Position numbers and translations under genes: made by a program. A stretch of DNA of 5,648 bases from Clostridiales bacterium (GTDB lineage: Bacteria; Bacillota_A; Clostridia; Saccharofermentanales; Saccharofermentanaceae). Positions 797-4,876 of the stretch are shown here, one piece after another. Below the pieces are notes generated by a model. That model ran no database searches. It was not told the DNA's origin and was given only the letters and a program-made list of their open reading frames with translations. The stretch spans positions 1 to 5,648 of the forward strand of contig JAILHZ010000060.1 in NCBI GenBank assembly GCA_024695545.1. Direction: 5' to 3'. Each line of letters opens with the position of its first letter. Position 1 is the first letter of the stretch.

Positions 797-825
797 TTGA
801 CACCATTTCTTTTCGGGAGTATCAT
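797..825 (+). promoter_or_regulatory. Strong sigma-A-type promoter for the Met-rich leader and acetyltransferase
   Basis: A perfect -35 TTGACA (797-802) is followed after 17 bp by TATCAT (820-825), a 5-of-6 match to the -10. The start would be near 832, leaving only about 22 nt before the leader ATG at 854. This compact arrangement of promoter, Shine-Dalgarno site and tiny ORF is typical of attenuator leaders. Confidence 0.8.
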
Positions 826-853
826 CAACTAAACTTCAAAGGAGGCTGTATTC

Positions 854-940
854 ATGCGTTTTACAATGATGCCCATGATGGATATGTACATGATGATGTG
901 TGACATAAAGTCATATGGCATTGAACGCGCGCAAAAATAA
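854..940 (+). CDS. Methionine-rich 28-aa leader peptide
   Basis: A 28-codon ORF starts at the ATG at 854 behind a textbook AAAGGAGG (838-845) with 8-nt spacing, and ends at TAA (938-940). Its first 16 residues are MRFTMMPMMDMYMMMC: nine of the first fifteen codons are ATG, eight of them clustered in codons 5-15 (866-898). It lies directly downstream of a strong promoter and is followed by an intrinsic terminator before the acetyltransferase gene. That order, promoter then short ORF then terminator then enzyme, is the arrangement of ribosome-mediated attenuators. The peptide probably acts in cis, through ribosome progress, rather than as a free product. I do not recognise it as a named leader family. 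A stable small Met-rich protein is the alternative. Confidence 0.72.
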   Translation: MRFTMMPMMDMYMMMCDIKSYGIERAQK

Positions 941-978
941 CAGTCATTTAAAACGTAAAGCGAAACATTCAAGGCCAT
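915..978 (+). promoter_or_regulatory. Candidate antiterminator pairing in the leader RNA
   Basis: ATGGCATTGAA (915-925), inside the 3' part of the leader ORF, is complementary to TTCAAGGCCAT (968-978) at 10 of 11 positions, with one A/G mismatch at 920/973. The second segment includes the 5' arm of the terminator stem (971-978), so the two structures exclude each other. A ribosome paused in the ATG cluster would cover RNA to about 912 and leave 915-925 free. A ribosome reaching the stop codon would mask it and let the terminator form. The pairing is seen in the sequence; its role is inferred. Confidence 0.55.
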
Positions 979-1007
979 TTATCCAGTGATAGATGGCCTT
1001 TTTGTTT
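971..1007 (+). terminator. Intrinsic (Rho-independent) terminator or attenuator
   Basis: A 13-bp stem pairs 971-983 with 988-1000 and contains a single G-T wobble at 979/992. The outer 8 bp are AAGGCCAT/ATGGCCTT, the loop is CAGT (984-987), and the U-tract TTTTT-G-TTT starts within the 3' arm. It lies between the leader ORF stop (940) and the acetyltransferase start (1028), so it can only serve as an attenuator for that gene or as the end of a monocistronic leader transcript. Confidence 0.9.
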
Positions 1008-1027
1008 CAGTTAAAAAGGAGGACACC

Positions 1028-1498
1028 ATGGTTATCAGAAGATTTAAGGAAGAACAGGCAAAAGAAGTATCGGATCTCATCAGAACGACGATCCGGATCT
1101 CAAATACGAAGGACTATCCTCTGGAACTCATGGAGCAGCTGATCGAGTCGGAAACACCGGAGCATGTGATCGAACGGGCAAGCTGGACACACTTCTATGT
1201 GGCGCAGGACGAAGGCCGTATCGTCGGCTGCGGCGCCATCGGTCCCTACTGGGGAAAGGAAGATGAGAGCAGTCTCTTTACGATTTTCGTGCTTCCCGAG
1301 TATCAGGGGAAAGGAGTCGGAAGATCGATCATCGAAACGCTTGAGACCGACATCTTTTTCCTTCGTGCCAGAAGAATCGAGACCCCTGCGTCGATCACCG
1401 GGGTACCCTTCTACCTCAAACAGGGATACCACTATAAGGACGGGATATCCACACCGGATGAAGAACACCTGATCCGACTGGAAAAGCACCGGTCCTGA
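1028..1498 (+). CDS. GNAT-family N-acetyltransferase
   Basis: This 156-aa protein uses acetyl-CoA to acetylate an amine on an unidentified substrate. The N-terminus MVIRRFKEEQAKEV is a typical GNAT first strand and helix. A central VAQDEGRIVGCGAIGPYW (58-75) precedes motif A, FTIFVLPEYQGKGVG (84-98), whose QGKGVG loop binds the acetyl-CoA pyrophosphate. The C-terminal PFYLKQGYHY matches the FY..xGY motif B region. The ATG at 1028 is chosen because AAAGGAGG (1015-1022) lies 5 nt upstream. An in-frame GTG at 986 falls inside the terminator stem and is not credible. Expression probably depends on read-through of the 971-1007 terminator. The substrate could be a small molecule, antibiotic or peptide; the sequence does not decide. 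No clear terminator follows it. Confidence 0.9.
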   Translation: MVIRRFKEEQAKEVSDLIRTTIRISNTKDYPLELMEQLIESETPEHVIERASWTHFYVAQDEGRIVGCGAIGPYWGKEDESSLFTIFVLPEYQGKGVGRSIIETLETDIFFLRARRIETPASITGVPFYLKQGYHYKDGISTPDEEHLIRLEKHRS

Positions 1499-3016: not shown

Positions 3017-3047
3017 TCTGGGAAGCCTTCTGATCAGGCTTTCCAGA
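3017..3047. terminator. Hairpin at the convergent junction, possible bidirectional terminator
   Basis: TCTGGGAAGCCT (3017-3028) pairs with AGGCTTTCCAGA (3036-3047) over 12 bp with one G-T wobble and a 7-nt loop. It lies 26 bp after the transporter stop and overlaps the last codons and stop of the minus-strand acetyltransferase. Neither side has a clean U-tract (the minus side reads ACATTTATC), so termination would be weak or factor-assisted. Confidence 0.45.
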
Positions 3048-3549
3048 CGCTCTTGGCGATCTCGTAAACGCCTTCGTGATAGGAATCCATTCCCGTAAAG
3101 AAGATTTCAAATCCGCACTTCTTAAGGACTCTTCCGGAGGCTTTATTTTCCAGAAGGCGGATGCCGTATACTTCAGTGACGCCGGCACGCTCCGCCATCA
3201 CCGGAAGGAAAGCGGACACGGCTTCTGTCGCATAGCCATTCCCGGTATAGGGTTTCGCCACGTGATATCCGATCTCCCACTTGCCTTCATCGATCGGGAC
3301 AAACTGGACATAACCGATGTTCTTCCCTTCGTCTTTCGTGATCAGGGCATAGACCTGCGGGCCTTCCATGTTGCCGTACTGGGACATCAGGAACTCGATC
3401 GTTTCCTGTGCGTCTTCAAGTGTCTCGAAGACCTCGTCCGGAACGAATCTTCTCGTATCTTCGTCCAGGGAATTCTTATGGACATCCATAGCCATGTCCA
3501 TCGTCATTTCTTTTACTTTTAATCTATCTGTTTCAAATAAAATACTCAT
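3034..3549 (-). CDS. RimJ/RimL-type GNAT acetyltransferase
   Basis: This 171-aa protein has the Acetyltransf_3 (RimJ/RimL) layout: FETDRLKVKEMTMDMA at the N-terminus, then WEIGYHVAKPYTGNGYATEA (91-110) with the acetyl-CoA-binding TGNGYA loop, and ENKASGRVLKKCGFE (134-148), the usual N..S..v..k.GF motif. The family acetylates protein N-termini or small molecules; the target here is unknown. I take the ATG at 3549 because AAAGGA (3561-3556) sits 6 nt before it; an in-frame ATG at 3564 has no ribosome-binding site. It follows the deacetylase gene after 47 bp in the same direction and is probably last in the operon. The hairpin at 3017-3047 overlaps its stop codon. Confidence 0.9.
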   Translation of the reverse strand: MSILFETDRLKVKEMTMDMAMDVHKNSLDEDTRRFVPDEVFETLEDAQETIEFLMSQYGNMEGPQVYALITKDEGKNIGYVQFVPIDEGKWEIGYHVAKPYTGNGYATEAVSAFLPVMAERAGVTEVYGIRLLENKASGRVLKKCGFEIFFTGMDSYHEGVYEIAKSVWKA

Positions 3550-3596
3550 GTTGTTTCCTTTCATTTCTGTCGTCGTTTCGCTGTCTGTTTTTCTTC

Positions 3597-4301
3597 TTAC
3601 AGCTTGATGAACTCCGGTTCGTCAAAGACGAATCCGTTATCGAGAAGCAGGTCGAGGAGGGTCCTGTAATACTCCGGCACCAGTTCTTCCGTTTCATCAT
3701 GGGCATGAAGAATGAGCAGGTGGCTGCCGTCCTCATCGGTGAGGAGAGATTTACCCAGTTCCGGATTCACCTCTCTCGTTCTTGCCAGAATATCGTCAAA
3801 CGTAACACCTGAATCCGGGCGGATCTGCCATTCGGCAAAATCAAAAGTCCAGAAGGTGTCAACGTCTTTATCGAGTCCCATCTCTTTCCAGATCGCATAC
3901 GGGATCTGGGTATCTTTGACTTTATCGAAGCCGTTCTTTCTGAAATACTCCTGCAGCGCGTCCTTATTCTCCCCGCCTTTATCGCCATACGGGAATCGGA
4001 ACGGACGGTACTTTCTTTCCACGCCGGCATCCTGATAGAGCTTATCGAGGATCTTTTCATTCTTCTCGATCTCTTCGATCGCTTCTTCCATCGAAAGCTT
4101 CGAAAAGAACGGATGGGAGTAGCTGTGGTTGCCGACGATGATGCCGTTTTTTAAGGCATAGAGAGCATTATCGTAATACTCCTCCACTCTCTGTCCCCAG
4201 GCGAACATGATCGTCGGGATCTTCTTTTCGACCAGATAATCCACGATTGCGGGTGTATTCTTCGAAGCGATATCGTCTATCGTCATGACTGCATGTTTCA
4301 T
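3597..4301 (-). CDS. Polysaccharide deacetylase (NodB/CE4 fold), no signal peptide
   Basis: The 234-aa protein carries the NodB motifs in order: MTIDD (6-10; catalytic base and metal Asp at 9-10, with Ile where Phe is usual), the metal-binding pair GNHSYSHP (57-64; His59, His63), RFPYG (102-106), the WTFDFAEW region (151-158) and LLILHAHD (195-202; catalytic His near 199). CE4 enzymes remove N- or O-acetyl groups from glycans such as peptidoglycan or chitin oligomers in a metal-dependent way. There is no signal peptide or membrane anchor, so it is probably cytoplasmic, acting on a soluble substrate. Start: ATG at 4301 with AAGGAA (4316-4311) about 9 nt upstream. It lies 26 bp after the preceding acetyltransferase, pointing to co-transcription. 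Its exact substrate is unknown. Confidence 0.88.
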   Translation of the reverse strand: MKHAVMTIDDIASKNTPAIVDYLVEKKIPTIMFAWGQRVEEYYDNALYALKNGIIVGNHSYSHPFFSKLSMEEAIEEIEKNEKILDKLYQDAGVERKYRPFRFPYGDKGGENKDALQEYFRKNGFDKVKDTQIPYAIWKEMGLDKDVDTFWTFDFAEWQIRPDSGVTFDDILARTREVNPELGKSLLTDEDGSHLLILHAHDETEELVPEYYRTLLDLLLDNGFVFDEPEFIKL

Positions 4302-4327: not shown

Positions 4328-4876
4328 TTATCGCTCTGTCCGCAGTATAGAATACCAAGAAGCATCACAGATGCCGGTATTGTTCTTATCCGATGCGCGG
4401 AGCGTGCCCTCGAACTTCATACCGCAGTGTGTCATAACCATGCCGGAGTGCGGGTTTCTCGGGTCGTGATAGCTTCGGATCGAGTTTGCTTCTACGGTGT
4501 CAAAGAAGAAATCCATAACCGTCTGGAGCGCCTCCGACATGATGCCCCGATGCCACCATTTTCTCCCGAGGCAGTACCCGACGGTGATCGATTCGGTATC
4601 GTTATTTACGAGGCCGTGGATCGTCCCGATAGGCTCATCGCCAAGTTCTTTAAGTGTAATGGCCCAGTGATAGTAATCGTCCTTCTCGTAGAGCGGAATC
4701 CAGGTGGAGAGCACATATTTACTTACGTCAACACTCTGATGTGTCGGCCAGGTCAGAAACTTCGTGACCTCCGGATCCGACGCCCAGTTTGAAAACATCG
4801 CTTCCGCATCTGATTCCTCGAGTCTTCGAAGAATCAGTCTATCCGACTCCAGTTTCTTCGTTCCGCAGTGTTTCAT
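4328..4876 (-). CDS. RimJ/RimL-type GNAT acetyltransferase
   Basis: This 182-aa protein starts MKHCGTKKLESDRLILRR, the hallmark of Acetyltransf_3 proteins. The acetyl-CoA-binding region is VGYCLGRKWWHRGIMSEALQ (99-118), followed by DPRNPHSGMVMTHCGMKFEG (138-157), the N..S..vm.k.GM motif, and the C-terminal DASWYSILRTE typical of the family. The start at 4876 is chosen because AAGGAG (4890-4885) precedes it by 8 nt. The frame is open upstream to 4999, which would overlap the S51 gene and lacks a comparable site. It is about 36 bp short of touching nothing odd: 73 bp separate it from the S51 gene and 26 bp from the deacetylase. Substrate unknown; protein N-termini and small amines are family precedents. 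Confidence 0.9.
   Translation of the reverse strand: MKHCGTKKLESDRLILRRLEESDAEAMFSNWASDPEVTKFLTWPTHQSVDVSKYVLSTWIPLYEKDDYYHWAITLKELGDEPIGTIHGLVNNDTESITVGYCLGRKWWHRGIMSEALQTVMDFFFDTVEANSIRSYHDPRNPHSGMVMTHCGMKFEGTLRASDKNNTGICDASWYSILRTER

Follow-up and report, generated by a model that had tools for sequence, protein, structure and literature searches.

A conserved leader upstream of GNAT acetyltransferase genes that probably acts as a ribosome-mediated transcription attenuator

The window analysed here is a stretch of 5,648 nucleotides from a Clostridiales bacterium (contig JAILHZ010000060.1, forward strand). It carries a short upstream open reading frame (uORF) and an intrinsic terminator between a promoter and a GNAT acetyltransferase gene, and this arrangement raises the question of whether ribosomes stalled on the uORF switch the gene on. 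A sequence-only reading had proposed a ribosome-mediated attenuator at this site, and the parts that it named, a promoter, a Shine-Dalgarno (SD) site, a 28-codon ORF, a 13-bp terminator and a GNAT gene with its own ribosome-binding site, are all found in place.

797..825, + strand: sigma-70-like promoter, with the -35 box TTGACA at 797–802, the -10 box TATCAT at 820–825 and a spacer of 17 nt
841..845, + strand: Shine-Dalgarno site of the leader ORF, GGAGG, from the sequence
854..940, + strand: leader ORF of 28 codons starting at ATG 854, peptide MRFTMMPMMDMYMMMCDIKSYGIERAQK, from the ORF listing, with the frame kept in homologues
868..873, + strand: region 1 of the protector helix 1:2, which pairs with 917–922 in the no-ribosome fold
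899..915, + strand: hairpin within the ORF (899–904/910–915), 100% paired in 17 leaders
915..925, + strand: region 2, 5' arm of the predicted antiterminator, from pairing and comparison of leaders
968..978, + strand: region 3, 3' arm of the predicted antiterminator, overlapping the terminator 5' arm, from pairing and comparison of leaders
971..1008, + strand: intrinsic terminator, stem 971–983/988–1000 (100% paired in 13 leaders) and tail TTTGTTTC at 1001–1008
1016..1022, + strand: Shine-Dalgarno site of the GNAT gene, AAGGAGG, from the sequence
1028..1498, + strand: gene for a GNAT acetyltransferase of 156 aa, predicted to be under the control of the leader, with Pfam matches to Acetyltransf_7 (E 4e-15) and Acetyltransf_1 (E 2e-14)

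The promoter matches the consensus at 11 of 12 positions and ranks first among the four promoter-like sites of the window, a match that proves nothing alone since about five sites are expected by chance at a looser cut of 9 of 12. In an alignment of 13 leaders (the window and twelve homologues described below), T820, A821, A824 and T825 are invariant and T797, G799, A800 and C801 nearly so, and the RNA probably starts near position 832. The GGAG of the leader-ORF SD site (841–844) is invariant or nearly invariant in the same 13 leaders and reads AGGGG in L115. The terminator, with 13 bp, a 4-nt loop and a T-rich tail, is the strongest of 11 terminator-like sites in the window. The gene upstream of the leader encodes an alpha/beta hydrolase on the minus strand with its start at 650, and because this neighbour is divergent the terminator can serve only this leader. 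The start of the GNAT gene is taken as ATG 1028 on account of its good SD site; the 170-aa protein predicted in a database (P0001) would instead begin at GTG 986, within the terminator, which is probably a misassigned start.

The end of the uORF had been said to pair with a stretch overlapping the 5' arm of the terminator, and the sequence bears this out: 915–925 and 968–978 pair at 10 of 11 positions, the sole mismatch being A920/G973. Since 16 of 1000 dinucleotide-shuffled uORFs reach 10/11 against 961–983, this complementarity is only suggestive by itself, and the comparison of leaders decides. The helix between regions 2 and 3 (2:3) and the terminator helix (3:4) are mutually exclusive, as positions 971–978 are common to both, and both are conserved. 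The stretch 832–1010 has a folding energy of -56 kcal/mol (z -4.9).

These parts are probably those of a transcription attenuator, extending over 832–1027, that senses the early stalling of ribosomes. As long as the uORF carries no ribosome, region 2 would be held by region 1 and the hairpin at 899–915 and region 3 would be free, so that the terminator stem (971–1000) would form and yield a truncated transcript of some 175 nt. A ribosome in the last third of the uORF would cover region 2, with termination again the predicted outcome and the gene off. A ribosome stalled at roughly codons 2–12 would displace region 1 and allow region 2 to pair with region 3, and this pairing would block the terminator and permit transcription of the GNAT gene.

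Homologous leaders were sought upstream of GNAT relatives and then with covariance models. One protein search returned 3531 GNAT homologues and a genome scan gave 267 relatives; the leader was looked for in the best 80 of them. It is present in 12 of these best 80 of 267 (L002, L006, L008, L010, L011, L012, L013, L015, L018, L024, L026 and L069) and lacking from the other 68, including L003, which encodes a GNAT 93% identical to that of the window. A covariance model (R1) built from the window and the twelve leaders was used to search the family of G005 (115 genomes) and gave full-length matches (at least 95 bits) in 16 genomes, namely the twelve and L112, L113, L114 and L115; the window with these 16 homologues makes up the 17-leader set. 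Model R2 identified no full-length leader outside the family, either among the 188 genomes of the order (115 from the family plus 73 others) or in a class sample of 391, where there was one weak match (G280, 30.9 bits). Weak partial model matches, judged by eye, occur at L095, L098, L099, L110, L111, L116–L120 and L132. The relatives' records are mostly rumen and gut metagenome-assembled genomes labelled Saccharofermentans, Oscillospiraceae, Ruminococcaceae, Clostridia or Clostridiales. The leader peptide has no match in the plasmid and phage collections, the leader DNA has none in the plasmid collection, and the GNAT has no relative among the viral contigs.

Across 26 codons, 16 of the 17 leaders have no stop in the frame of the uORF (frame 0), and none of the 17 is open in frame 1 or 2. 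The exception is L113, situated at a contig end, which has an early stop, lacks the ORF end and has lost two of the 2:3 pairs. The 17-leader alignment (A4) used to count the helices was built on a model whose sole structure is the terminator, and neither of the two helices counted guided it. The 2:3 helix is paired in 94.1% of cells, compared with at most 45.3% in slid controls and 89.8% when partners are shuffled, and none of 500 shuffles is as high as the real value. Changes on both sides of a pair affect two pairs and three cells; in the 13-leader alignment (A2) the helix is 93.7% paired, with double-sided changes at three pairs and seven cells. The covariation score of the helix among the 17 leaders is 0.072, and a version slid by -1 scores slightly higher (0.076); 105 of 500 shuffles equal the helix in the number of doubly changed pairs, five of its ten pairs never vary and one pair is broken in eight of 17 rows. 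By sequence, then, the 2:3 pairing is well kept and its covariation modest. Compensation is clearer in the hairpin within the ORF, which is paired in 100% of cells in the 17 leaders (slid controls at most 65.7%), is changed on both sides at two pairs and eight cells and surpasses each of the 500 shuffles and every slid version in covariation score. The sequence-only reading had suggested covariation checks for 915–925/968–978 and for the terminator stem: the former shows a few compensatory changes at a modest score, and the latter, 100% paired in the 13 leaders, shows one-sided changes only. A further helix (P0), between the uORF SD site at 844–849 and the stretch after the stop codon at 940–945, is seen by eye in many of 16 minimum-energy folds; it is not countable from the alignment, where the rows are out of register.

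Leaders that keep the terminator and lack the small ORF or its complementarity had been named in advance as evidence against the attenuator. The comparison gives the reverse, with the uORF kept in 16 of 17 leaders and the 2:3 helix paired in 94% of cells; the counter-examples to conservation of the ORF are L113, with its lost ORF end, and L014, where a shortened terminator precedes the GNAT and the ORF is gone. At the level of sequence, the comparison demonstrates the uORF frame, the 2:3 helix, the ORF hairpin, the terminator and the link to GNAT genes.

The order of the switching states is a prediction from computation. The RNA of each of the 17 leaders, taken as far as the terminator loop, was folded while the footprint of a ribosome was moved along the uORF codon by codon; the simulation describes static folds and not kinetics. 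Among 16 leaders (L113 left out), the mean occupancy of the antiterminator with no ribosome is 0.06, versus 0.44 after shuffling of the early codons, and it lies below the shuffled mean in all 16. The off state expected from the protector helix 1:2 is thus found across the 16-leader simulation with two exceptions: L069 is already on at 0.63 with no ribosome, and in L024 shuffling makes little difference, with 43 of 60 shuffled versions as low as the native leader. In the window, antiterminator occupancy is 0.008 with no ribosome, averages 0.85 with a ribosome on codons 2–12, codon 10 giving a lower value, and is 0 once the ribosome stands at codon 17 or beyond. The early-stall response of the other 15 leaders is uneven: ten reach at least 0.74, and weaker values are found for L008 (0.41), L114 (0.33), L011 (0.30), L013 (0.24) and L115 (0.07). 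A ribosome on the last codon brings back some antiterminator in several leaders, most of all in L069. The logic that had been predicted, with the antiterminator on after an early stall and off with a finished ribosome or none, is therefore seen in folding, at a strength that varies among leaders. The stall zone had been placed at codons 5–15; early codons do switch the structure, but in the window the switching codons are 1–9, 11–12 and 16, so that no clean zone from 5 to 15 is obtained. The leader is real and conserved and, as far as comparison and folding tell, is built to work as the sequence-only reading proposed, and an attenuator of this kind upstream of the GNAT gene is supported by both the 17-leader comparison and the folding.

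What causes the stall is a separate question, and the peptide of the window directs attention to methionine, which accounts for 8 of the 27 residues after the start. Over the 17 leaders, Met accounts for 73 of 444 residues, far more than its usual share of a few percent in proteins. These counts favour classical amino-acid attenuation, in which scarce charged Met-tRNA would stall ribosomes on the Met run and turn on a GNAT acting in sulfur amino-acid metabolism. This explanation is nevertheless improbable: internal AUG codons range from eight to one among the 17 leaders, with one in L114, two in L008, L018 and L115, and three in L010 (the peptides of L114 and L115 are MRNNVTTKFACCECACDMKSYGIVVASR and MRSDMNSFMNICLCTYDRTSYGIGSARF), and the stretch required to pair with region 2, which contains CAU, includes or adjoins some of the Met codons. 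Four different GNATs lie downstream, and no Met-pathway NCBIfam model is among the matches listed. The methionine limitation suggested earlier as an inducing condition is disfavoured in the same way, since the Met run is not conserved. A metal-ligand (Met/Cys/His) peptide, an idea prompted by MxM, HMH, CMC and CxC patterns, was set aside because L008 breaks the pattern.

A second explanation is an arrest peptide of the kind encoded by the ermC and ermB leaders, where a specific nascent chain and one particular drug together stall the ribosome. Resistance genes controlled by uORFs are known, according to the available parts of PMC6310831 and PMC13410324, but the sequences make an arrest peptide quite unlikely here. 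Codon differences within the uORF are nonsynonymous rather than synonymous by 134 versus 31 in one subtype and 242 versus 20 in the other, and in the loop codons 62 of 65 and 79 of 81 differences are nonsynonymous; these are pairwise sums over subtypes of seven leaders each, are not independent and count any change of an AUG codon as nonsynonymous. There is no conserved R-x-R motif among the leader peptides (by eye, only L008 has one). Conservation extends neither to the peptide as a whole nor to its Met run, and this speaks against both a methionine sensor and an arrest peptide; the leader exemplifies an RNA that is conserved while its peptide is not. A general sensor of stalling, comparable to toiL, appears to fit best, and on balance the likeliest natural signal is stalling by a translation inhibitor. 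Amino-acid shortage is a less likely signal than an inhibitor, and an improbable one. No Met-codon rule was found in the available part of a review on the context specificity of inhibitors (PMC13410324).

A ligand-binding riboswitch or a protein-binding leader, with the ORF incidental, could account for the elaborate conserved fold (z -4.9) and is very unlikely given that the frame is kept in 16 of 17 leaders, that the SD site is conserved and that no Rfam family matches the leader at the gathering threshold (0 matches). An ordinary terminator or a decayed relic devoid of regulation would agree with the pieces of the element kept without an ORF at L004, L014 and L123, and is hardly tenable when the divergent upstream gene leaves the terminator no other gene to serve and the window copy is intact in every part. 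At L004 the remnant consists of a -35 box followed at once by the 3' arm of the terminator, and at L123 of a promoter adjoining the terminator, away from the GNAT. On the GNAT tree the leader label needs three changes, compared with a shuffled mean of 8.9, so that a single gain with losses may be envisaged.

A leader ORF hints at the purpose of its gene, as a gene switched on by stalled ribosomes likely acts against translation stress. GNATs form a very large class in which many substrates are unknown, and the leader gives a short list to be tested against ribosome inhibitors. The genome-wide model search provides the fair count of downstream genes, since the thirteen window-type leaders were found by looking upstream of that GNAT. 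Of the 16 full-length leaders in 115 genomes, 15 have a downstream gene in view, in every case a GNAT, and the downstream gene of L113 lies beyond the contig end. Twelve of the 15 precede a GNAT of the window type, and L112, L114 and L115 each precede one of another kind, so that the leader is seen here before GNATs only, of four kinds. The GNAT of the window exhibits 28% identity to that of L114 over 143 residues and 35% to that of L115 over 83, and matches that of L112 only in a stretch of 26 residues; the L114 and L115 GNATs are 29% identical to each other. Three independent GNAT partners would be improbable by chance.

For the four GNATs, no NCBIfam model reaches its cut-off. The solved structures nearest to the GNAT profile are amino-acid acetyltransferases (E about 2e-5), and the AlphaFold model of the GNAT is moderate, with a mean pLDDT of 72 and residues 120–156 below 50. 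In some genomes the same GNAT domain also ends EAL-domain proteins of 858–895 residues, and three of four fusions tested carry the GNAT domain behind an EAL domain (L030:1901-4474, L029:1781-4465 and L044:1856-4459); more than 60 residues of open frame precede the GNAT in 25 of 140 homologue loci (duplicates included). Given these EAL fusions, a role in resistance is not implied. The GNATs might tentatively be assigned the modification of a translation-inhibiting compound. It is likewise conceivable, if doubtful, that the leader serves acetyltransferases exclusively, as a transferable sensor cassette joined to four different GNATs within a single family of rumen Clostridia, and that each of these GNATs has its own amine-bearing ribosome inhibitor as substrate; if so, the leader would mark an unrecognised set of inducible enzymes of resistance or self-protection.

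In the amino-acid leaders of the trp/his type (Yanofsky), pairings 1:2, 2:3 and 3:4 keep the operon off when the leader is untranslated and on after an early stall. The leader of the window would follow the same logic but has no conserved run of a single amino acid and no known biosynthetic gene. A second system for comparison is the topAI-yjhQ-yjhP operon of E. coli, whose YjhQ product we take to be a GNAT. This operon is controlled by the uORF toiL, which responds to ribosomes stalled anywhere along it by inhibitors of several classes, as described in the available part of PMC12121999. The likeness lies in a stall-sensing uORF and an operon that includes yjhQ; according to the same portion of PMC12121999, toiL differs in unmasking a ribosome-binding site and, indirectly, in acting through Rho, whereas the leader of the window has an intrinsic terminator and a predicted antiterminator, and topAI-yjhQ-yjhP is a toxin-antitoxin operon. 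Neither GNAT nor acetyltransferase is mentioned in that part of the text (PMC12121999). The earlier statement that no attenuator of this type had been described for a GNAT gene must be narrowed accordingly: a uORF-controlled operon with yjhQ is known, but it uses translation control and Rho and not an intrinsic terminator, as far as the available part of PMC12121999 describes it.

Listeria rli80-hflXr, as presented in the accessible part of PMC6310831, also uses transcription attenuation by stalling on a uORF with alternative terminator and antiterminator, and differs in that rli80 is a 14-codon ORF with an RLR macrolide motif and in that the gene encodes a ribosome-splitting factor. The elements uORFC-8-2 (cysS) and uORFC-6-1 (hflX) are similarly uORF attenuators found computationally, in other hosts and before other genes, and the words GNAT and acetyltransferase occur 0 times in the accessible text of PMC8632094. 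This leader was not found described in the portions available of the literature on attenuators, uORFs, acetyltransferases or GNATs, which does not prove that a description is absent.

Another type of uORF attenuator is found before orthologous GNATs (at 4001) in L064, L071 and L081, with a GAAAGGA-like SD site and ORFs of 31–39 codons, and before a methyltransferase-like gene in L094 (around 1377–1550); L067 has a Met-rich version. In folding, the terminator 5' arm of this type is paired upstream by default; a ribosome that has come to the end of the ORF frees it in L064, L071 and L094, not in L081.

Further downstream in the window, a second uORF, MVRCEADAPCRA (1587–1625), precedes a gene for a Mef-like MFS efflux protein (1701–2990). 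The stretch 1587–1706 has a z of -4.9, the end of this ORF pairs with a downstream arm, and a repeat (CTTTGCTC/GGAGCAAAG) could mask the ribosome-binding site of the MFS gene. The stretch 1587–1706 is likely a translation attenuator, present also in L002. Two more GNAT genes (Acetyltransf_3) lie on the minus strand within 4 kb, at 3034–3564 and 4328–4876.
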